Source: Sutcliffiella horikoshii (lineage in GTDB: Bacteria > Bacillota > Bacilli > Bacillales > Bacillaceae_I). Taken from it: a DNA stretch of 64,000 nucleotides. The translations under genes were made by a program, and so were the position numbers. The stretch lies in assembly GCF_019931755.1 (NCBI RefSeq), contig NZ_CP082918.1:2522001-2586000 (forward strand), given 5' to 3'. Position 1 is the stretch's first letter. Every line of letters begins with the position of its first letter. Shown here piece after piece: positions 1-64,000 of the stretch. The notes below the pieces were generated by a model that had not been told where the DNA came from, searched no databases, and saw nothing but the letters and a program-made list of their open reading frames with translations.

Positions 1-972
<972 letters not shown>

Positions 973-999
973 ATTCATATGTAGTTGTATACCGTTATT

Positions 1000-2161: not shown

Positions 2162-3487
2162 TTATTTTGTCAGCTTGGTTTTTGCTTGAAAAGGTAAATC
2201 CAGTCTTACTAGGTCTTCGAATGTTTCGCGGCGGATGACTAGTTGTGCTTCCCCGTCTTCCACAAATACAACCGCGGGTTTAGTGATTCGGTTATAGTTG
2301 TTTGCCATTGCATATCCGTATGCTCCGGTGCAGAATACTGCCAAGTAGTCTTCATGATTAGCTTTTGGCAATGGAAGGTCCCAAATTAACATGTCTCCTG
2401 ATTCACAGCACTTACCTGCTATCGACACCTTGTCATCTGCTTCATCTTCCACTCTGTTTGCCAGTACCGCCTCGTATTTTGCCTGATATAATGCTGGACG
2501 AATATTATCCGTCATACCACCATCGATGGCCAAATAATGCCTGATATTAGGAATCTCTTTTTTAGATCCTACAGAATAGATGGTAGTTCCCGCATCTCCT
2601 ACTAATGAACGACCAGGTTCAATCCAAATTTCCGGCATTTTCAAGCCATGATCTTTTACAAAGGATTGAACGTCTGTGATGATTTCTTCTACATACACAG
2701 AAGCAGGAAGAGGATTGTCTTCTTCCGTATAGCGAATGCCAAATCCACCGCCAAGGTTTACAACGCGCGCTTCAAATCCTTCTTGTTCGTTCCATTCCTT
2801 TAATGTATCAAAAAGTTTGCCTGCAGCAAGCTTAAATCCTGTTGTTTCAAAGATCTGAGAACCAATGTGACAGTGAATGCCCAGCAAGTCCAAATGAGAA
2901 GCATTAGAAGCAATCTTCATAGCTTCGTGTGCCTGGCCGCTTTGCAAGTCAAAACCAAATTTGGAGTCCTCTTGACCTGTTAAAATATAATCATGTGTAT
3001 GTGCATTAATACCTGGTGTAACACGTAGTAGAATTGGCATCGTATATCCATGTTTTGCACAGATGTCTTGAAGCAAAGTCAATTCCAAGAAGTTGTCTAC
3101 AACCACACAGCCAATCTTCTTCTCTACAGCCATTTCTAGCTCTTCGACACTCTTGTTGTTGCCGTGAAAGTGGATGCGTTCTACCGGAAAGTCCGCCACG
3201 AGTGCCGTATATAGTTCGCCTCCTGACACGACGTCCAGTGATAAGCCTTCTTCTTTTATAAGCTGAAACATAGCAACAGAAGAAAATGCTTTGCTTGCGT
3301 ATGCTACTTGAGCTTTTACACCAAGATTTTTGAATGTTGTTTGAAAGTCGCGTGCACGTTGTCTAATTAGTGCTACATCATAAACGTATAGTGGAGTGCC
3401 ATAATCGTTTGCCAGTTCAATTGTGTCCACTCCTCCTATTTCCAAGTGTCCTTTTGTGTTTACTTTACTAGTTCCATGAAAATACAT
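2162..3487 (-). CDS. lysA: Diaminopimelate decarboxylase
   Basis: PLP enzyme that makes L-lysine from meso-diaminopimelate, the last step of lysine synthesis. The 441-residue protein has the fold III decarboxylase layout: the PLP lysine in AYASKAFSS (near residue 45), HCHIGSQ, the glycine-rich phosphate site GGGFGIRY, and CESGD and CTGAYGYAM that complete the active site across the dimer. The ATG at 3487 has GAGGGG seven bases upstream and gives the expected length; an earlier in-frame start has no ribosome site. It follows spoVAF as in B. subtilis, but a terminator separates the two, so it may have its own promoter. Confidence 0.95.
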   Translation of the reverse strand: MYFHGTSKVNTKGHLEIGGVDTIELANDYGTPLYVYDVALIRQRARDFQTTFKNLGVKAQVAYASKAFSSVAMFQLIKEEGLSLDVVSGGELYTALVADFPVERIHFHGNNKSVEELEMAVEKKIGCVVVDNFLELTLLQDICAKHGYTMPILLRVTPGINAHTHDYILTGQEDSKFGFDLQSGQAHEAMKIASNASHLDLLGIHCHIGSQIFETTGFKLAAGKLFDTLKEWNEQEGFEARVVNLGGGFGIRYTEEDNPLPASVYVEEIITDVQSFVKDHGLKMPEIWIEPGRSLVGDAGTTIYSVGSKKEIPNIRHYLAIDGGMTDNIRPALYQAKYEAVLANRVEDEADDKVSIAGKCCESGDMLIWDLPLPKANHEDYLAVFCTGAYGYAMANNYNRITKPAVVFVEDGEAQLVIRRETFEDLVRLDLPFQAKTKLTK

Positions 3488-11753: not shown

Positions 11754-13058
11754 TTATTCAGAAATCGTATCATAAACAAGTGGGGGAACTTTCACTTCGC
11801 CACTTACCACTTTAATGCTCTCATATAATGCTTCTTTTACTTTTGTAAGATCTTCTTGGTTACTGTGGATTGTTGCAAGTGACTCGCCTGCTTCCACTTT
11901 GTCACCAATCTTTTTGCGCAGAACAATTCCTACTGCAAGATCGATCTCAGAGTCTTTAGTTGCACGGCCAGCACCAAGCAACATCGCAGCAGTTCCAACA
12001 GAATCAGCCACAATCTCAGATACTACACCAGCTTCTTTTGCTTCAAGCTCCACCACATGCTTAGCTTGAGGTAATTTCTCAGGGTTATCGACAACAGAAG
12101 CGTCTCCACCTTGTGCTTCCAAGAATGTCTTTAATGTTTCGATTGCTGCGCCAGAGCGGATAACTTCTTCCAGCATTCCGCGTGCTTCTTCCAATGTAGA
12201 AGCTTTTTCTGCTAAAAGAACCATGTAGCTACCTAGCTCCAAGCAAAGCTCTTCTAAATCTTTTGGACCTTCGCCACGCAAAGTGTCGATAGCTTCTTTA
12301 ATCTCTAATGCGTTACCGATTGCAAATCCAAGTGGCTGGCTCATATCAGAGATGACTGCCATTGTTCTGCGGCCAACATTGTTTCCGATATCAACCATTG
12401 CTTTTGCAAGCTTTTTCGCTTCGTCCAAGTCTTTCATGAATGCACCGGCGCCAGTTTTTACATCCAATACGATTGCGTCTGCTCCAGCGGCAATCTTTTT
12501 GCTCATGATGGAGCTTGCAATCAACGGAATGCTGTTTACAGTAGCTGTTACATCACGCAAAGCATAAAGCTTTTTGTCAGCAGGAGTCAGGTTACCACTT
12601 TGGCCGATAACGGCAACTTTATTTTTGTTTACATAGTCGATGAATTCTTGGTTGTCGATTTCTACGTGGAAGCCTGGTACAGACTCAAGTTTATCGATTG
12701 TCCCACCAGTGTGACCAAGGCCACGGCCACTCATTTTAGCAACCGGAACTCCAACAGCCGCTACAAGTGGTGCCAACACTAATGTTGTAGTGTCGCCAAC
12801 TCCGCCAGTACTGTGTTTATCAACTTTGATACCTTCGATAGCAGATAGGTCAATGGTGTCTCCAGAGTGAACCATTGCCATTGTTAGGTCTGCGCGTTCT
12901 TGGTCACTCATTCCTTGGAAGAAGATGGCCATGGAGAAAGCGCTCATCTGATAGTCAGGAATGGATCCGTCTGTGAATCCGTTTACGATGAATTGGATTT
13001 CTTCTGTTGTTAGTTCTTTTCCGTCACGTTTCTTTTGTATAAGGTCTACCATTCTCAT
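11754..13058 (-). CDS. pdp: Pyrimidine-nucleoside phosphorylase
   Basis: Splits uridine, thymidine and deoxyuridine with phosphate into base and (deoxy)ribose 1-phosphate. The 434 residues show the family's phosphate site [13 protein letters not shown] (near residue 80), [17 protein letters not shown], and the C-terminal domain. Start ATG at 13058 with AAGAGGTG upstream. It follows punA by 32 bases; together with deoB the three genes form a nucleoside salvage operon. In B. subtilis pdp lies elsewhere with dra and nupC, so the grouping here differs from that model. Confidence 0.95.
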
Positions 13059-26102: not shown

Positions 26103-27236
26103 TTAATCTTCTTTTATTAACCATCCAATGGCATTTATATCATTAAGATGGTGGAAAAACAGAGCATCCTCTGTCTCCATTACTCCCGTTATATTCGTAA
26201 ATGGTATGGAATCACTTTGCATATCTTCTAGTACTTCGCCTGATTTATTAATCGCGATAACGTGGGAGTAACCTGCCCCTTTAGGCAACATTTTAGCTGG
26301 AAGGCGCATTGCCATTTTCCTTAATAACGGCTTATCGGAACTAAATTCTAAGAAATCATTTCTGGGCATGATTAGTCCAATCCAGAATTTTCCGTTCTCT
26401 CCTGCCATCATATTATCCGGTAATCCAGGTAGATTATCTAGGAGAACTTCTGCAAATTCACTTTCTTCTTTTGTAGTTAGTGTCTGATCTGTTTCGAGGT
26501 TTAACTTCCAGACGCGGTATTTTCCCGTTTCATTTATTAGGAGATATTTTTCGTCAGTACTTAGTGCTATTCCGTTTGCAAAGCTAATATCTTTCATTAG
26601 AACTCTAGTTTTTTTCGTAGCCGGATTATACTCCAATACTCTACCTGTGCTTCTATTTTCAAGAATATCTATTTCTCCAGCGCGGCCAACATCACCGATT
26701 TCTTTCGCTTTTGTCCTTTGAGAAGCATCCGTAAAATAAATGGTTCCATTATTAGAAACTACTACCGCATCAATAAAATTTAAGGGTTTCTCTTCCACGG
26801 TGTCTGTTAAAAGATCAATCTCCCCGTCACCATCTTCATAATTGCTTATTTTAAGTAACCCGCCATGGTTACCATAAAGTGGGTCAGCAACTATGATTGA
26901 TCCTTCGTTATCAAAGTCAAAGCCTAAAGGCCTGCCTTTCGTATTTGCGATTTCTTGTAATCCTGTACCATCCTCACGTACACGAATGATTGCACCAGTT
27001 TTTGTGGCTGCGTACAACCATCCTTCACGATAGACGATATGCTCCGGCTCTGCATATTCTCCAATAGACAGATATTCCATCCCACTTAATCTATTATTTT
27101 TCTCAAAGGTACCTGTATATCCATGGGATTTTGGAGATTCCCATGCAACAGGATCAATGGAGACAGGCCAAAATAATAGATATAATATTAATACTGTACA
27201 GAGAAATGCAAGCACTTTGATGATTTTGAGTTTCAT
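26103..27236 (-). CDS. Membrane-anchored SMP-30/strictosidine synthase-like beta-propeller protein
   Basis: 377 residues. One N-terminal membrane segment (VLAFLCTVLILYLLFWPV, residues ~7-24) is followed by a six-bladed beta-propeller like strictosidine synthase or gluconolactonase: GRPLGFDFDNEGSIIVADP near residue 115, IYFTDAS near 170, FANGIALSTDEKYLLINE near 220 and LPGLPDNMMAGENGKFWIGL near 270. These are the strand motifs of the family; the catalytic role is unknown and probably a lactonase or esterase. ATG at 27236 with GAGGAA upstream. The 21-bp repeat array lies upstream. Confidence 0.85.
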   Translation of the reverse strand: MKLKIIKVLAFLCTVLILYLLFWPVSIDPVAWESPKSHGYTGTFEKNNRLSGMEYLSIGEYAEPEHIVYREGWLYAATKTGAIIRVREDGTGLQEIANTKGRPLGFDFDNEGSIIVADPLYGNHGGLLKISNYEDGDGEIDLLTDTVEEKPLNFIDAVVVSNNGTIYFTDASQRTKAKEIGDVGRAGEIDILENRSTGRVLEYNPATKKTRVLMKDISFANGIALSTDEKYLLINETGKYRVWKLNLETDQTLTTKEESEFAEVLLDNLPGLPDNMMAGENGKFWIGLIMPRNDFLEFSSDKPLLRKMAMRLPAKMLPKGAGYSHVIAINKSGEVLEDMQSDSIPFTNITGVMETEDALFFHHLNDINAIGWLIKED

Positions 27237-27313
27237 AGTTATTCCTCGACCTCCAATAAATACCATATATTACTTATTATCTACTAAAAAATTGCAACAG
27301 TCTATGCGAAATT

Positions 27314-27439
27314 GTAGAAGGTTAGAGATTAATGGTAGAAGTTCGTCTGGGAAATGTAGAAGGTGGTCCGGGAAATGTAGAAGTAAGCATTTAAACAGTC
27401 GAAGCGGACGTATTTATGGTAGAAGCTCCTATTTTCCAA
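27314..27439 (+). repeat. Six-unit 21-bp iteron array A1 (GTAGAAG)
   Basis: GTAGAAG (once GTCGAAG) starts at 27314, 27335, 27356, 27377, 27398 and 27419, exactly 21 bp apart each time. Between the motifs the sequence varies, with GGGAAAT shared by two units. It fills the gap between the SMP-30-like gene and the terminator of the reductase gene. A sister array lies at 53759-53870. Confidence 0.9.
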
Positions 27440-27440
27440 A

Positions 27441-27476
27441 CAAAAAACAGGTGCACTCTCCAAAGAGTTACACCTG
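27441..27476 (-). terminator. Terminator after the RibD_C reductase-like gene
   Basis: Minus-strand CAGGTGTAACTC and GAGTGCACCTG form a 11-bp stem (one mismatch), then TTTTTTG. The arm includes the stop codon of the upstream gene. Array A1 begins directly beyond it. Confidence 0.88.
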
Positions 27477-28022
27477 CTTATCTTCCTCTCTTACCACTAT
27501 ATATCGATTTTGAACAAGTCCGGTTGGGAACGAGTTGCTCTCAACAAGCTCAAGCTTATTTTCTCGTTCTGATCCTTTAAATAATCTTACGCCATTCCCT
27601 ATTAGAATCGGAACGGTGGAAATAACATACTCGTCAATCAGATCTTGTCTGACAAATTCTTTTATTACTTCTGCTCCTCCATCAACAAAAATATGCTTCC
27701 CACTAGTTGACCGAATGTTATTAATTAACTCTTTTACATCGCCAGAATAGTATTCAACATTTTCATCTGAACCTTCTTTAGAATTGGAGAGCACATAGGT
27801 TTTTCTTTCCTTGTGAGGGAACTCCATGCCAAAAGACAGGACTTTCTCATAAGTTCTCCTACCCATAATTACTGTATCGACACTTTCTACAAATTCCATA
27901 TATCCATAATCTTCTCCGGGAGTATCCACTATGGAAAGCCAGCTGATATCATCATCTTTCTTTGCTATAAATCCGTCCACACTCTGGGCTATGTATACAA
28001 TTACTTTTCTTGAGTTTCTCAT
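27468..28022 (-). CDS. Dihydrofolate reductase-like protein (RibD C-terminal family, YyaP type)
   Basis: 184 residues of the RibD_C/DHFR fold: KVIVYIAQSVDGFIA at residues 6-20, TVIMGRRTYEKVL near 50, KHIFVDGGAEVIKEFV near 110 (NADPH-binding loop), and LFKG. Likely an NADPH-dependent reductase, but members of this family have no firmly known substrate. ATG at 28022 with GAGGAG nine bases upstream. Single gene. Confidence 0.87.
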   Translation of the reverse strand: MRNSRKVIVYIAQSVDGFIAKKDDDISWLSIVDTPGEDYGYMEFVESVDTVIMGRRTYEKVLSFGMEFPHKERKTYVLSNSKEGSDENVEYYSGDVKELINNIRSTSGKHIFVDGGAEVIKEFVRQDLIDEYVISTVPILIGNGVRLFKGSERENKLELVESNSFPTGLVQNRYIVVREEDKQV

Positions 28023-52928: not shown

Positions 52929-53056
52929 CCATTCTCCCCCCTTTAGTTAAGCAAAGACTAATTATAAATACGAACAAATCTCTCCATCTATGCATGAAAC
53001 TGCTCTTCTTCTACATATAAATTTATGGACAAGTCTTGTTGTTAGGAGTAATTAAC

Positions 53057-53686
53057 ATGGAAATAATATGGATAATCCTTCACTTTATTGTACTTGGTAT
53101 CAGTTTGGCTGCTCCGGTGGGTCCAATAAATTTAGAAATGATCAAACGAGGAATTTCTTCTGGGTTTTATGCCTCCTGGCTGGTAGGACTGGGGGGAATG
53201 ACTGCTGATATTATATTTTTATTAATCATCTTAATTGGAATGGCACCTTATCTTCAACTCCAATGGGTGGAAATATGCATGTATGGAATAGGTGGTACTC
53301 TATTGCTATACCTTGGGATAACGACTATCTACAGCTCTTTTACAAAGAGGAAAATTCTCGAGATTGGACAACCTATTCAGAGGAATTCATATGTGGTTGG
53401 ATTTAGCATTGCTGCTTTTAATCCAATCAATTTTGTTTTCTGGTTCGGCATTTTCGGTTCCTCTATTCACGCTCTTTCCGAGAAAAGTTGGATAGTTGCA
53501 TTACTAGGTTGCTTCTCCTTATTACTCGGGATTTTTTTGTGGAACTTGAATATCGCCTTTACGGTTCACTTTGCACGCGCGTTTATTAAAGAAAAAATCC
53601 TTAAAACCGTTAATCTTGGGGCAGGGATATTTTTGACGGTATCTGCTTTTCCGTTTTTGTTTAGGTTTCTGAAGCTGATTTTATAA
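53057..53686 (+). CDS. LysE/ArgO-type amino acid exporter
   Basis: 209 residues with about six membrane segments. The LysE signature is seen as LAAPVGPINLEMIKRGISSG near residues 16-35, and FSIAAFNPINFVFWFG near 115 is the second conserved block. Probably exports an amino acid or related metabolite. ATG at 53057 with TTAGGAG nine bases upstream; an earlier in-frame TTG is less likely. No regulator is adjacent. A G-rich tract and array A2 follow the gene. Confidence 0.88.
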   Translation: MEIIWIILHFIVLGISLAAPVGPINLEMIKRGISSGFYASWLVGLGGMTADIIFLLIILIGMAPYLQLQWVEICMYGIGGTLLLYLGITTIYSSFTKRKILEIGQPIQRNSYVVGFSIAAFNPINFVFWFGIFGSSIHALSEKSWIVALLGCFSLLLGIFLWNLNIAFTVHFARAFIKEKILKTVNLGAGIFLTVSAFPFLFRFLKLIL

Positions 53687-53704
53687 AGATGGTGATGGCC
53701 CTCT

Positions 53705-53735
53705 GGGGAATAGGGGGATGATTGGGGGATGCGGG
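53705..53735 (+). other. G-quadruplex-type motif
   Basis: Four G runs, GGGG-N4-GGGGG-N6-GGGGG-N4-GGG, in 31 bases on the plus strand. It meets the G3+N1-7 rule. It lies 19 bases after the LysE-type gene and just before array A2. Overlapping its end, ATGCGGG-TTTTT-CCTGCAT can also fold as a small hairpin. Confidence 0.7.
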
Positions 53736-53758
53736 TTTTTCCTGCATACAAAAGAGGT

Positions 53759-53870
53759 GTTCTACCGTTTGGTGGAGACCTTCTACAACTTTGAGCTTAT
53801 GTTCTACCCTTTAGTGCCGACCTTCTACATTTCCCAGACTACCTTCTACATTTCCCAAGTCAACTTCGAC
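53759..53870 (-). repeat. Six-unit 21-bp iteron array A2 (GTAGAAG)
   Basis: TTCTAC (once TTCGAC) on the plus strand starts at 53760, 53781, 53802, 53823, 53844 and 53865: exactly 21 bp apart. On the minus strand this is GTAGAA-G/C, the same motif and period as array A1 at 27314. Two units share TGGGAAAT with A1 units. The 350-bp gap 53687-54038 holds this array, the G-rich motif and the ysnE terminator, and no gene. Confidence 0.9.
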
Positions 53871-53888
53871 AATTAAAGCAATTTACCA

Positions 53889-53933
53889 CAAAAAAAACAC
53901 TCCCCGTTTAAAGATTTTAAAGCAGGTGAGTGT
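53889..53933 (-). terminator. ysnE terminator
   Basis: Minus-strand ACACTC and GAGTGT with an inner TTTAAA/TTTAAA pairing form a long hairpin, then TTTTTTTTG. It is about 105 bases past the ysnE stop. Confidence 0.75.
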
Positions 53934-54038
53934 GTATGACAGTACTATACAACTATTCAAGATTTTTTTACAATAACAGTTTCCGTTCTATGTACTCTCG
54001 ATATATGCGCAATTGCCCCTTTCCTATTATTTCTAAAT

Positions 54039-54494
54039 TTATAATTTCTTCATCATGAAAACACAATTAGGATCTTCTTCGTAATCGGCAAACGGCTCAC
54101 AATAGTCAAATCCAAAACTTTTATAGAGTTTCTGCGCAGGATAAAAAGCCTCCATGGAACCTGTTTCAAGATATAAATTCTGATAACCACGTTCTTTTCC
54201 AGCTTGAATAATGGATTGAAGGATTTGCGCGCCTATACCTTTTCTTAAATGCAACGCTGAAGTTCTCATGGATTTCACCTCACCACTCTTGGCGTCCAAC
54301 TCCTTAAGCGCTCCACAACCAACAACCTCAGTTCCTTCCCACACGCTCCAAAAAGTAACATCCGGTTTTCTCAAAGCATCTAAGTCCAAATAATGGTTGC
54401 TTTCTGGTGGAGAGAGCAGATTTAAATTTCTCATATGCTCCTCAACAAACGCTATGACCGCTGGGTGTGTAACATCATCAATCTTAATTTTCAT
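54039..54494 (-). CDS. ysnE: GNAT N-acetyltransferase YsnE
   Basis: 151 residues. It matches B. subtilis YsnE closely (FWS-WEG at residue 48, GCGALKELD, KSMRTSALHLRKGIGAQIL near 74-92 with the acetyl-CoA loop RKGIGA, and LYLETGSM and YCEPFADYEEDP at the end). YsnE has been linked to indole-3-acetic acid formation in Bacillus, but the direct substrate is not firmly known. ATG with GAGGAGCG nine bases upstream. Confidence 0.9.
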   Translation of the reverse strand: MKIKIDDVTHPAVIAFVEEHMRNLNLLSPPESNHYLDLDALRKPDVTFWSVWEGTEVVGCGALKELDAKSGEVKSMRTSALHLRKGIGAQILQSIIQAGKERGYQNLYLETGSMEAFYPAQKLYKSFGFDYCEPFADYEEDPNCVFMMKKL

Positions 54495-62045: not shown

Positions 62046-62807
62046 CTATCCGTGATTCAATTCAAAGTGTTCTTCATGTAGCTGAATGAGGGTTAAATCT
62101 TTGTTTAGCTCCTTAATCTTTAATGCTAAACTTTCCACCCCAAATATCTCAGTAAAGGTATGGCTTCCAACAAGTAGATTTACACCTGCAAACTTGGCAT
62201 ATTGAATGGTATATAAACTTGACTCTCCAGTTATGTATGTATCGCAACCATAATCAAGGGCAAATTTTATATGGTCAGTTGAATGACCTGCGCCAGTTAA
62301 CACCCCTACTTTCTTTACCTTATCCTCATGATTTTTCCACGCTCTTACAGGCTCGTCCAACTCCGTGCTCATTCTTTCTACAAGGCACTCAAAACTTTTA
62401 GCTTCGTTAAACTCACCGATACCAGGTACACTAAAATTCTTGTACTCGGAAAAACGAATGATGTTATCAATACCAATTTTATTCATCAATGAAGTGCATG
62501 TACCAAAATCAATGTAATCCAGTGGACCATGGATCCAGAAATGGCTGATGTTATACTCTTTTAATCTCTTTATACATTCCTCTTTTAACCCATATATAAA
62601 GTCCCATGTGTCATGGTGAGTTATGATTAAATAGACCTTTGCGGCTTTTGCCTGTTCAATCACTTCGATTGAAAGATTGGTCGAATACCCAATTGTCTTT
62701 ATTAAGGTATTGGAGGTATTAGTGAATCCGTAATCGTCATCAAACTCCTCCAATAACTCTCTAGGAAAAAGCTCATGAATCATAGTTTTAAATTTTGTGA
62801 TTTCCAT
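62046..62807 (-). CDS. Nif3-like dinuclear metal centre protein
   Basis: 253 residues of the NIF3/GTP cyclohydrolase I type 2 family. Metal ligands: YLIITHHDTWDF near residue 59, GPLDYIDFG near 94 (variant site), and GSHTFTEIFGVE near 217 with His and Glu. KVGVLTGAGHSTDHIKFALDYGCDTYITGE near 170-200 is the family core. Function in bacteria not settled. It differs from the usual housekeeping member (YqfO type) in being short and lacking the inserted domain. ATG with AGGGAGGG upstream. Confidence 0.88.
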   Translation of the reverse strand: MEITKFKTMIHELFPRELLEEFDDDYGFTNTSNTLIKTIGYSTNLSIEVIEQAKAAKVYLIITHHDTWDFIYGLKEECIKRLKEYNISHFWIHGPLDYIDFGTCTSLMNKIGIDNIIRFSEYKNFSVPGIGEFNEAKSFECLVERMSTELDEPVRAWKNHEDKVKKVGVLTGAGHSTDHIKFALDYGCDTYITGESSLYTIQYAKFAGVNLLVGSHTFTEIFGVESLALKIKELNKDLTLIQLHEEHFELNHG

Positions 62808-62922
62808 AAAATCCCTCCCTCTGCATATACCAATTATTTCAAATTATAGTCATTAACTCAATACTAATTTCCCAAAATCATAATCTCTTGTCATTAATTG
62901 TCATTCGGATTTTCATATTGGC

Positions 62923-63131
62923 GATGAGGACCTCTCTCCTCCTTATTTTTCTTCACCGAGGTCTTCATAACGTCAATGAGGACCTCTCTCCTCCTAATTT
63001 ATCGTCACTGAAGTCTTCATAACGGCGATGAGGACCTTTCTCTTCCTAATTCCTTGTCACTGAGGTCTTCATTACCGCGATGAGGGACCTTTCTCCTCCT
63101 GATTTCTTGTCACCAAGGTCATCATCGCGTC
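62923..63131 (+). repeat. 52-bp tandem repeat array B2 (four units)
   Basis: Units start at 62923, 62975, 63027 and 63079, exactly 52 bp apart; the fourth has one extra G. The unit is RATGAGGACCTYTCTCCTCCT, an AT-rich stretch, TCACnGAGGTCTTCATaacG. GAGGTCTTCAT-N7-ATGAGGACCTC spans the first junction as an 11-bp dyad. It is the same family as B1 and also ends with CGAtCCAG-ATT. The 422-bp gap 62808-63229 holds only this array and the permease terminator. Confidence 0.92.
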
Positions 63132-63171
63132 GATCCAGTATTACCTTGAAGACTAACCACTATTAAACAAT

Positions 63172-63217
63172 TAAAAATTTAAAAGCAGGCTTCATTCGTA
63201 ATGGAATAAAACCTGCC
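63172..63217 (-). terminator. Permease gene terminator
   Basis: Minus-strand GGCAGG and CCTGCT with an inner TTCCATT/AATGAA pairing, followed by TTTAAATTTTT, 13 bases after the stop. Confidence 0.78.
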
Positions 63218-63229
63218 ACGATCATTATT

Positions 63230-64000
63230 TTAAATTTCTAACTCACGTAACATCTTTTTCCTTGAATAAAAGTAATACACCGTCTGTATTAGTAAGTAAA
63301 CTCCAGAGATGCTTGCAAAATGAACTAGAAATTGCGGATTCTCCATGATTCCACCAATATCCTGTGCAAAGGAGAAAACATAAACATACGCCAAACTGCA
63401 TCCTAGTAGCGGAGTAAAGAAGAACAGCACACTCATTTCCTTTGAAACAAGCTTCCTTATCTCTCTTTTAGTTATCCCAATCTTAAATAGCTTTTTATAT
63501 TTGGCTTTCTCCTCTTCTGTGTTGGAGAAGATGTTCAGGTATAAAAGGATGAAGGATCCAAAGAAGAAAAGAATGCTGATGAAGGTGGTGACAAAGAACA
63601 TGATTTTCGAAGAGCTTCTAAGGTGATTGTAATCTACCACTTTGGATACTGGCTTCAAAATCTGTTTTGTTTCTTCCACATCATAGACCTCTCGTACACT
63701 TTCCAATGGAGGGGTAGACTTGTTGATTTCCTCCAATCTGTTTTCCAAGTCCTCTGAAATTGCTTCTGTTAATTTCCAGTCGGCAAAGTTTAAAAGATGC
63801 ATCTTAACCTCATCTCCAATTAGATCCTTGCTTAACTGTTGAAACACCGTATCATTGACAACCAATATGGAATAAGGTGTATATCTATGAAAGTTTAACT
63901 GCTTATCAATGATAGTTTTTTTAAGAGAATATTTAAACTGAGCATCTCCATCTTTAAATTCAAGACCGTTATCATATATGCTATCGCCTGAAGTAGCTCT
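63230..64000 (-). CDS. ABC transporter permease (FtsX/BceB-like), N-terminus beyond the window
   Basis: The last 256 residues are visible; the frame is open through the window edge at 64000. An extracellular-type stretch (residues ~1-130 of the part) is followed by three membrane segments (IMFFVTTFISILFFFGSFILL; VLFFFTPLLGCSLAYVYVFS; VHFASISGVYLLIQTVYYFY), with KKLFKIGITKREIRKLVSKE between the first two. This is the typical end of an FtsX-like permease of the BceB/YxdM type that helps against peptide antibiotics. The ATPase gene is not in view. Confidence 0.83.
   Translation of the reverse strand, partial: RATSGDSIYDNGLEFKDGDAQFKYSLKKTIIDKQLNFHRYTPYSILVVNDTVFQQLSKDLIGDEVKMHLLNFADWKLTEAISEDLENRLEEINKSTPPLESVREVYDVEETKQILKPVSKVVDYNHLRSSSKIMFFVTTFISILFFFGSFILLYLNIFSNTEEEKAKYKKLFKIGITKREIRKLVSKEMSVLFFFTPLLGCSLAYVYVFSFAQDIGGIMENPQFLVHFASISGVYLLIQTVYYFYSRKKMLRELEI

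Follow-up and report, generated by a model that had tools for sequence, protein, structure and literature searches.

What kind of element is an array of six short direct repeats, set at a constant step of 21 bp, that lies between two convergent genes on the chromosome of Sutcliffiella horikoshii? The array, termed A2 (53760..53870, plus strand), is part of a 64-kb window, meaning the whole stretch of DNA that was analysed (positions 2,522,001-2,586,000 of the 4.31-Mb contig of genome G000, with dnaA at about base 600). A preliminary description of this window had regarded A2 and a second array, A1 (27314..27424, minus strand), as copies of a functional, dispersed element rather than products of chance; the dispersal and the non-random origin are now established, and a function is supported by selection on the repeated word and its spacing. 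We tentatively read A2 as a row of six phased sites to which a sequence-specific protein would bind, with a possible role as a barrier behind genes, and give this reading slightly less than an even chance.

Architecture and unit number of the TTCTAC arrays

A2 is composed of five TTCTAC cores starting at 53760, 53781, 53802, 53823, and 53844 and a TTCGAC core at 53865, all on the plus strand, at steps of exactly 21 bp and with 15-bp spacers in between. The positions and the period given in the preliminary description are therefore exact, and A1 indeed carries the cores in reverse complement, again six in number, with the same 21-bp steps and one TTCGAC variant. The sequence shared by two units of A2 with A1 was also found as claimed: it is TGGGAAAT (ATTTCCCA), represented by ATTTCCCAG and ATTTCCCAA in units 4 and 5 of A2 and by ATTTCCCGG and ATTTCCCAG in A1. 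The doublet formed by these units of A2 (53823..53858, plus strand) recurs in many TTCTAC arrays, and the sixth, terminal unit, TTCGAC-AATTAAAGCAATTT (53865..53884, plus strand), has counterparts at several TTCTAC loci, as judged by eye. Shuffling never reproduced such arrays: eight in-register core triplets occur in the window, four in each array, versus none in 100 dinucleotide-preserving shuffles. When six rows were scanned for period-21 columns without presuming any word, A1 scored 15.6 and A2 14.4, with the next value in the window at 6.8 and no further array of this kind in the 64 kb; the maxima of 10 block-shuffled windows (5.2 to 10.0) all stay below both arrays.

A two-unit pattern together with a profile search revealed 18 intergenic TTCTAC arrays on one contig of G000, located at 506, 962, 971, 1382, 1653, 1655, 1828 (twice), 2057, 2123, 2281, 2461, 2549 (A1), 2576 (A2), 3060, 3068, 3305, and 3831 kb. 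Exactly six units are present in 14 of these 18, and in 41 of 57 arrays from four related genomes (18 in G000, 14 in G013, 17 in G015, and 8 in G001), although orthologous or tandem arrays among the 57 make these counts non-independent; the remainder have three (1 array), four (3), five (7), seven (4), or eight units (1). The steps are even more uniform, with 21 bp in 262 of 275 cases, 22 bp in 12, and 20 bp in one, and the core is exactly TTCTAC in 264 of 332 cases. The number of units, which had been suspected to be fixed near six, thus shows a preference for this value, and the arrays are neither restricted to two copies nor random in count nor decayed in spacing. The caller used to chain the units allowed any unit number, split chains crossing tandem arrays beforehand, and found no array in block-shuffled loci; the loci outside G000 were chosen through matches to a profile of six-unit arrays, and the 57 arrays leave uncounted some profile matches without a chain call (L370, L401, L404, and one of two in L397).

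The same gene borders bear TTCTAC arrays in related species, and at pyrE, ndk, and rlmCD whole arrays stand in tandem, as 6+6 (pyrE in G000, rlmCD in G015) or 6+6+6 (pyrE in G015), with small deviations from whole sixes at pyrE in G013 and ndk in G015. Since these duplicates are mostly whole sixes, the group of six behaves as a unit. A near-perfect palindrome resembling TACCTAATTTTAAAATTAGGTA follows about one step past the last core at several loci (L387, L374, L390, L398, and L072), which include pyrE and ndk, and is duplicated together with the array. A different short intergenic palindrome, similar to GGGGTCAGACCCC, recurs in several species of the genus (L077 at about 12500-12530, L450, and L460). 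In G001, the cores appear by eye to be damaged more often than in the sister species (TTCTTA, TTCTCA, or TTCTAG, for example in L396 at 1847-1957 and in L402), as though constraint had been relaxed there.

Selection on word and spacing

Comparison of 11 orthologous array pairs shows where the arrays resist change. Identity reaches 360 of 384 positions (94%) in the core, and the values for the rest of the unit are 207 of 270 (positions 7-11), 246 of 368 (67%; positions 12-18), and 119 of 157 (positions 19-21). The 60-bp flanks are identical at 448 of 647 (69%) and 435 of 609 positions (71%), which means that spacer centres and flanks drift at the same pace. Length is conserved as well: in 18 pairs, into which some loci entered twice, 6 gap openings were counted in 1,873 array columns versus 65 in 3,968 flank columns, corresponding to 0.32 versus 1.64 per 100 columns and thus five times rarer inside the arrays (Fisher p 4e-6). 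Because the core word and its spacing are conserved between species and gaps are rare, both are under selection.

Position relative to genes

With genes predicted from the length of open reading frames (ORFs) only, and with ORFs enclosing a whole array excluded (10 of the 57 arrays), the flanking genes are oriented, relative to the array strand, as (-,-) in 25 cases, convergently (+,-) in 19, and (+,+) in 12; the sole divergent case depends on an ORF of 97 amino acids. For comparison, a survey of 464 kb of the window's genome gave 138 intergenic regions of 150-900 bp, 27 of which separate divergent genes. The arrays between tandem genes are accordingly antisense in 25 and sense in 12 cases, and this use of either strand fits double-stranded DNA better than RNA as the level at which the arrays are read.

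The arrays lie behind genes and mostly also behind terminator-like hairpins. In 46 of the 57 arrays, the flanks of 15-400 bp could be scored for such hairpins: those directed toward the array occur in 49 of 62 gene-3' flanks and 1 of 30 gene-5' flanks, and those directed away from it in 2 of 62 and 0 of 30, respectively; array-less regions of the window's genome have terminator-like hairpins in 41 of 87 gene-3' and 8 of 75 gene-5' flanks. Moreover, the gene-3' flanks, read toward the array, contain 65% G/T with a GC skew of 0.42 (n=70), compared to 57% and 0.09 for the gene-5' flanks of arrays (n=36), and to 50% and 0.03 (gene-3', n=87) or 50% and -0.03 (gene-5', n=75) in array-less controls of the window's genome. 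This skew fades about 200-250 bp from the array, and at A2 it is represented by a G/T-rich stretch at 53687..53759 (plus strand), which separates the LysE-type gene from the array.

Arrays point to the terminus in 6 of 18, 5 of 14, and 4 of 17 cases in G000, G013, and G015, which have dnaA at the contig start, and Chi motifs (AGCGG) point at arrays 25 times versus 19 times away from them, giving no support for a Chi link. In the window's genome, TTCTAC arrays are missing from the region up to about 0.5 Mb away from dnaA, yet 18 arrays are too few for this gap to be convincing, and it is not shared by the second array family of this genome described below (arrays at 0.23 and 4.13 Mb), so that a link to origin or terminus was rejected. 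A Bacillus-type dif pattern was not found in seven genomes.

Other words on a similar design

Arrays of a similar layout occur on unrelated words, so TTCTAC is one of many, a point that the preliminary description had not recognised. In G009 and G005, which lack TTCTAC arrays, the word is TTTSRWG (TTTGATG, TTTCGAG, TTTGGAG, and others) at 21 bp, with six units in 6 of 13 arrays, five in 3, seven in 3, and eight in 1, the unsplit tandem set L462 and two three-unit chains being left out. Two of 12 compared loci coincide with array borders of the window's genome, namely pyrE in G005 and the 3060-kb border in G009. However, a similarity ranking does not place the arrays of these outgroups closest to the same-locus arrays of the window's genome; we therefore claim only a shared position and have dropped the idea that an array stayed where it was while its word was exchanged. 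In G002, the core variants TTCTAA, TTCTCA, and TTCTCC are found at two of the same gene borders.

The second family of the window's genome is built on TATCRAG, a word unrelated to that of A2, at 20-bp steps. Three-unit matches number 6 in G000 (at five loci, with L541 as a sixth locus), 7 in G013, 5 in G007, 10 in G006, and 7 in G003, with none in G015, G001, and G012; arrays of six or seven units in the window's genome include those of L549 (4132-4251) and L541 (about 3141-3260). The 35 matches were read at 30 loci, to which L541 and L549 were added, and gave 23 distinct arrays from five genomes with six (17), seven (5), or five units (1); the search through three consecutive units would miss shorter arrays and sets no upper limit on the count. 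The steps are 20 bp in 102 cases, 21 bp in 16, and 19 bp in one, and the flanks are likewise G/T-rich toward the array (0.59 and 0.65).

Further non-coding arrays were detected in scanned stretches of G014 (400 kb, including one 20-kb piece picked for a weak profile match), G004 (200 kb), and G016 (200 kb), the last from another genus, on the words GTGAGAAC, GGWCGAATG, TCAGAAGGT, GGCTCASAAA, GTTCGTGC, TTAATCTAKC, AAAGTATMSATAGA, GTGTAGCATAAA, and GATTGAAACACAA. As judged by eye, L505, L493, L510, L511, L520, and L512 have six units, and L504, L507, L522, and L526 have more, in a scan that required six rows and would let shorter arrays escape. In the same stretches without the picked piece but with the window added (844 kb), non-coding six-row arrays give 15 matches at period 21, a number that includes A1, A2, and one locus repeatedly, 10 at period 42, 6 at period 26 (from 52-bp repeats), and 0-3 at every remaining period from 12 to 41. 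Other results speak against generality: no 21-bp array was found in 400 kb more of G000 between the known arrays, nor in 200 kb each of G005 and G009, stretches that contain two 20-bp arrays in G000, two in G009, and none in G005. A control set of other bacteria yielded 11 period-21 matches, alongside periods 14, 28, and 35, and the four of these 11 that were inspected, three of them from one locus, are all heptamer repeats. The single period-21 match in a small set of other Bacillota is also a heptamer-like repeat, and 101 kb of non-coding viral DNA gave no period-21 match.

Comparison with known repeat classes

One report (PMC3733652) describes repetitive extragenic palindromes and bacterial interspersed mosaic elements (REP/BIME) as present in many intergenic copies, mainly between unidirectional or convergent genes and downstream of coding regions, with several families per organism and supposed roles in supercoiling and termination; in its main text, "Firmicutes" is absent and "Bacillus" appears twice. 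The TTCTAC arrays resemble these elements in being intergenic and in their convergent or tandem settings, with 1 of 57 arrays divergent versus the 27 of 138 controls, and differ from them in that their units, mostly six per array, repeat head to tail and show no hairpin pattern, whereas REP units are palindromic.

The binding sites of Noc in Bacillus subtilis are palindromes of the sequence ATTTCCCGGGAAAT. Its half-site ATTTCCC(GG) is present in many units of TTCTAC arrays and in some TTTSRWG arrays, but is absent from the arrays at 2281 and 3305 kb and from the TATCRAG arrays inspected. Within the window, neither A1 nor A2 contains the full palindrome, and one match with two mismatches compares to 0.39 expected, so that the arrays were not assigned to Noc sites. 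Clustered regularly interspaced short palindromic repeats (CRISPR) are identical repeats of about 23-47 bp between unrelated spacers. The arrays share with them the alternation of a conserved short word with variable sequence, but their word comprises only 6-10 bp (a 6-bp core in 21-bp units here), and their spacers of about 14 bp drift rather than being replaced, mostly over six units; a CRISPR array was thus rejected on repeat length.

A coding tandem repeat was rejected as well, since stops interrupt every reading frame in a set of 262 units. The stops per frame (54/78/33/88/298/70) compare with a column-shuffle expectation of 43.5/61.4/33.1/106.5/294.4/84.7, two minus-strand frames falling 17% below it and two plus frames lying above it.

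We know of no class of elements in which six is the favoured count and the word can be exchanged, and nothing on such arrays was found in the open-access literature, subscription papers being mostly outside this coverage.

Proposed function and alternatives

A constant word, a rigid step, drifting spacers, use in either orientation, and a place behind genes are expected of phased protein sites, and we infer that A2 is a non-coding element acting at the DNA level and read by a protein presumably encoded by the lineage itself. Such a protein would bind the TTCTAC core every 21 bp, aided by the following bases MNYTT, and six protomers on one face of the helix may form one nucleoprotein unit of about 110-126 bp. 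Its role as a barrier or insulator, which would halt read-through RNA polymerase or separate supercoiling domains, is speculative; the guess is based on the location of the arrays behind genes, mostly past terminator-like hairpins, in convergent or tandem and rarely divergent settings, and in either orientation. The preference for six over unrelated words suggests, again as a speculation, that the geometry of the reading protein sets the count, with six sites making one turn around a hexameric or wrapping protein. The TATCRAG arrays at 20 bp, the TTTSRWG arrays at 21 bp, and the others may follow one common design, each with a reader of its own specificity, and the G/T skew, on which the guess of a barrier also draws, could be the trace of deamination on non-template strands exposed by polymerases running into the barrier, an alternative being selection on the flank sequence itself.

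Several points weigh against this reading. No binding protein has been found, and none was sought by experiment; the G/T skew is open to other interpretations, and nearly half of the array-less gene-3' flanks also bear terminator-like hairpins. The 20-bp families lack two full helical turns, so 21 = 2 x 10.5 is not the whole rule, and the TTTSRWG arrays have exactly six units in only 6 of 13 cases (12 of 13 having five to seven). Ten of the 57 arrays lie within ORFs of 90-192 amino acids that were treated as spurious, among them A1, which is spanned by an antisense ORF of 118 amino acids (27157-27513, plus strand). The relatedness of the genomes, with the resulting dependence of orthologous and tandem array counts, also belongs here, as does the ranking of the outgroup arrays, which leaves a change of the core in place unseparated from re-insertion. 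Finally, the unit types shared between loci indicate that arrays were once copied around the genome, which binding alone does not explain.

This last point favours the view that the arrays are non-autonomous mobile or dispersed elements, in which the array would be recognised by a mobilising enzyme, with an ancestral spread, preferential landing behind genes, and an own enzyme for each word family. We consider this view unlikely but worth serious attention, as different loci share unit types and in some cases also the downstream palindrome, A2 and the 971-kb array are 85% identical across about 150 bp, whole arrays are tandemly duplicated, several word families coexist per genome, and the occurrence among related species is patchy (10 of 16 genomes of the genus, counting that of the window). 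Individual copies are, however, under selection at fixed positions in several species, unlike dead insertions, and neither terminal repeats nor a target duplication nor an exact empty site was demonstrated. Inspection of the flanking ORFs by eye revealed no mobilising gene (Pfam covering only the five genes beside A1 and A2), and a blastn search with A2 as the sole query matched none of 72,556 plasmid and 50,697 phage records, a result on which a phage or plasmid origin was also discarded. A scan of viral DNA gave at least 120 stretches, and those among them with four or more units resemble repeats in long open frames or uniform repeats, as judged by eye. Whatever the function, the arrays have probably moved, or at least been duplicated, in the past, in view of the shared unit types, the tandem duplicates, and the similarity of A2 to the 971-kb array. 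That the arrays are merely neutral minisatellites with drifting units appears improbable: tandem repeats do arise through slippage, some Neobacillus arrays are much longer, and the unit number varies in the TTTSRWG family, but most of the variation falls in the spacers, different species agree in core and spacing, families on unrelated words most often have six units, and period 21 stands out from most other periods in the 844 kb. As count, core, and spacing are conserved (unit number varying more only in TTTSRWG), the arrays were not classified as minisatellites with a variable number of tandem repeats.

Iteron-like sites for replication, plasmid control, or segregation, bound by Rep or ParR-like proteins, are a very improbable explanation despite a likeness. 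In the iteron arrays of plasmids and chromosome-II origins, a single protein binds a small fixed number of direct repeats, each about 20-22 bp long, and in ParR/parC-type centromeres a small protein forms an ordered filament on phased direct repeats. Iterons are nevertheless found once per replicon beside a rep gene, and parC-type centromeres are plasmid-borne beside par genes, whereas the arrays described here occur as 18 dispersed chromosomal copies of one family and differ from parC in copy number and placement. No replication-initiator, rep, or par gene lies beside A1 or A2 according to Pfam, the ORFs flanking the other arrays having been viewed by eye, and A1 and A2 are about 1.7 Mb away from dnaA if the contig is circular. 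Least probable of all is an element acting as RNA, either as a sponge or antisense RNA or as a Rho loading site. With 31% C and 10% G in the array, the TTCTAC strand has the C-rich, G-poor composition that such a site might have, but the arrays occur in both orientations relative to the flanking genes, terminator-like hairpins stand between genes and arrays, and the TATCRAG arrays are A-rich and not C-rich, as judged by eye; with the sense orientation in only 12 of 37 tandem settings, Rho-dependent terminators were rejected. RNA hairpins were also rejected because no antidiagonal run of pairing columns appeared within or between units (239 TTCTAC and 76 TTTSRWG two-unit windows), single column pairs reaching z values of 5.3 in isolation and negative ones down to -5.0. 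Flanks pair about equally well with their own partners and with those of other loci (-35.6 versus -34.5 kcal/mol, mean rank 0.46) and therefore do not form a stem, and Rfam, applied to the window at gathering score, recognised no known RNA family at A1 or A2.

The arrays of about six units on different words in related bacteria suggest an undescribed class of DNA-binding-site arrays behind genes. A bolder generalisation, which we hold to be somewhat unlikely, is that such "hexad arrays" are a general, undescribed element of bacterial chromosomes: six direct repeats of 20-21 bp with a nearly fixed count and step and a word that families and lineages can exchange freely, on which a family of reader proteins would wrap or polymerise over six sites to form boundary units behind genes. 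If this were true, six would be a constant of protein geometry and the exchangeable word a recognition code co-evolving with its reader. The preference for six with changing words at many loci and in several Bacillales lineages points to a DNA-binding system unseen by annotation. If a protein does read the arrays, the chromosomes of this group are organised, or their transcription is insulated, at a further level that has gone unrecognised.

Distribution of TTCTAC arrays

TTCTAC arrays are patchily distributed. Besides the matches in the genus of the window, three-unit matches occur once or twice each in three further genomes, those in G016 and G025 being uniform repeats of another kind. Among the matches listed, four-unit TTCTAC patterns are found in Sutcliffiella, Jeotgalibacillus, Neobacillus, Metasolibacillus, and Bacillus ndiopicus, together with many ordinary repeats in other bacteria. 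Eleven genomes picked for a four-unit match have 6 to 93 three-unit matches each and none to the reversed pattern, and in Jeotgalibacillus sp. S-D1 the last two units of one array are the pair ATTTCCCGG/ATTTCCCAA. An even sample of 397 genomes of the order contains 39 with matches to the TTCTAC pattern, 10 of them from the genus of the window, and among the matches listed many of the remaining genomes match by uniform or heptamer repeats. A search of the phylum with strict filters matched 22 of 398 genomes, the matches outside the genus being weak; among the retrieved loci listed, most lie in open frames or uniform repeats, and L363 has four units in a short frame. Very long TTCTAC arrays with repeated blocks of about five units (cycles of about 103 and 124 bp) were seen in Neobacillus sp. 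Marseille-Q6967 (L148 and L094), and B. ndiopicus has, in addition to its TTCTAC arrays, a non-coding period-21 array on the word TTCGCCCG (L114 at 2189).

Gene neighbourhood and further features of the window

The five genes beside A1 and A2 were identified by Pfam. A LysE-type translocator gene (53036..53686, plus strand) ends 74 bp before A2, and a convergent GNAT acetyltransferase gene (54039..54494, minus strand), neighbouring a YjdM gene, ends 169 bp after it. An inverted repeat beside an A-run (T on the minus strand) at 53890..53936 (minus strand), seen by eye, is a candidate terminator of the convergent GNAT and YjdM genes, although the terminator script made no call there, nor at either array of the window. 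A1 is flanked by genes on its own strand, with a RibD C-terminal/DHFR-like gene upstream (27468..28022, minus strand) and a strictosidine-synthase-like gene downstream (26103..27266, minus strand).

The only Rfam match of the window is a flavin mononucleotide (FMN) riboswitch at 825-975 (minus strand). Tandem repeats of about 50-57 bp (GATGAGGACCTCTCTCCTCC ... GGTCTTCATAACG) are located at 62807-63232, L535 and L536 of the same genome have 52-bp repeats of a similar word family (AGGTCCTC ... GATGAAGACCT), and the stretches of G014, G004, and G005 contain 52-bp repeats that differ in sequence.
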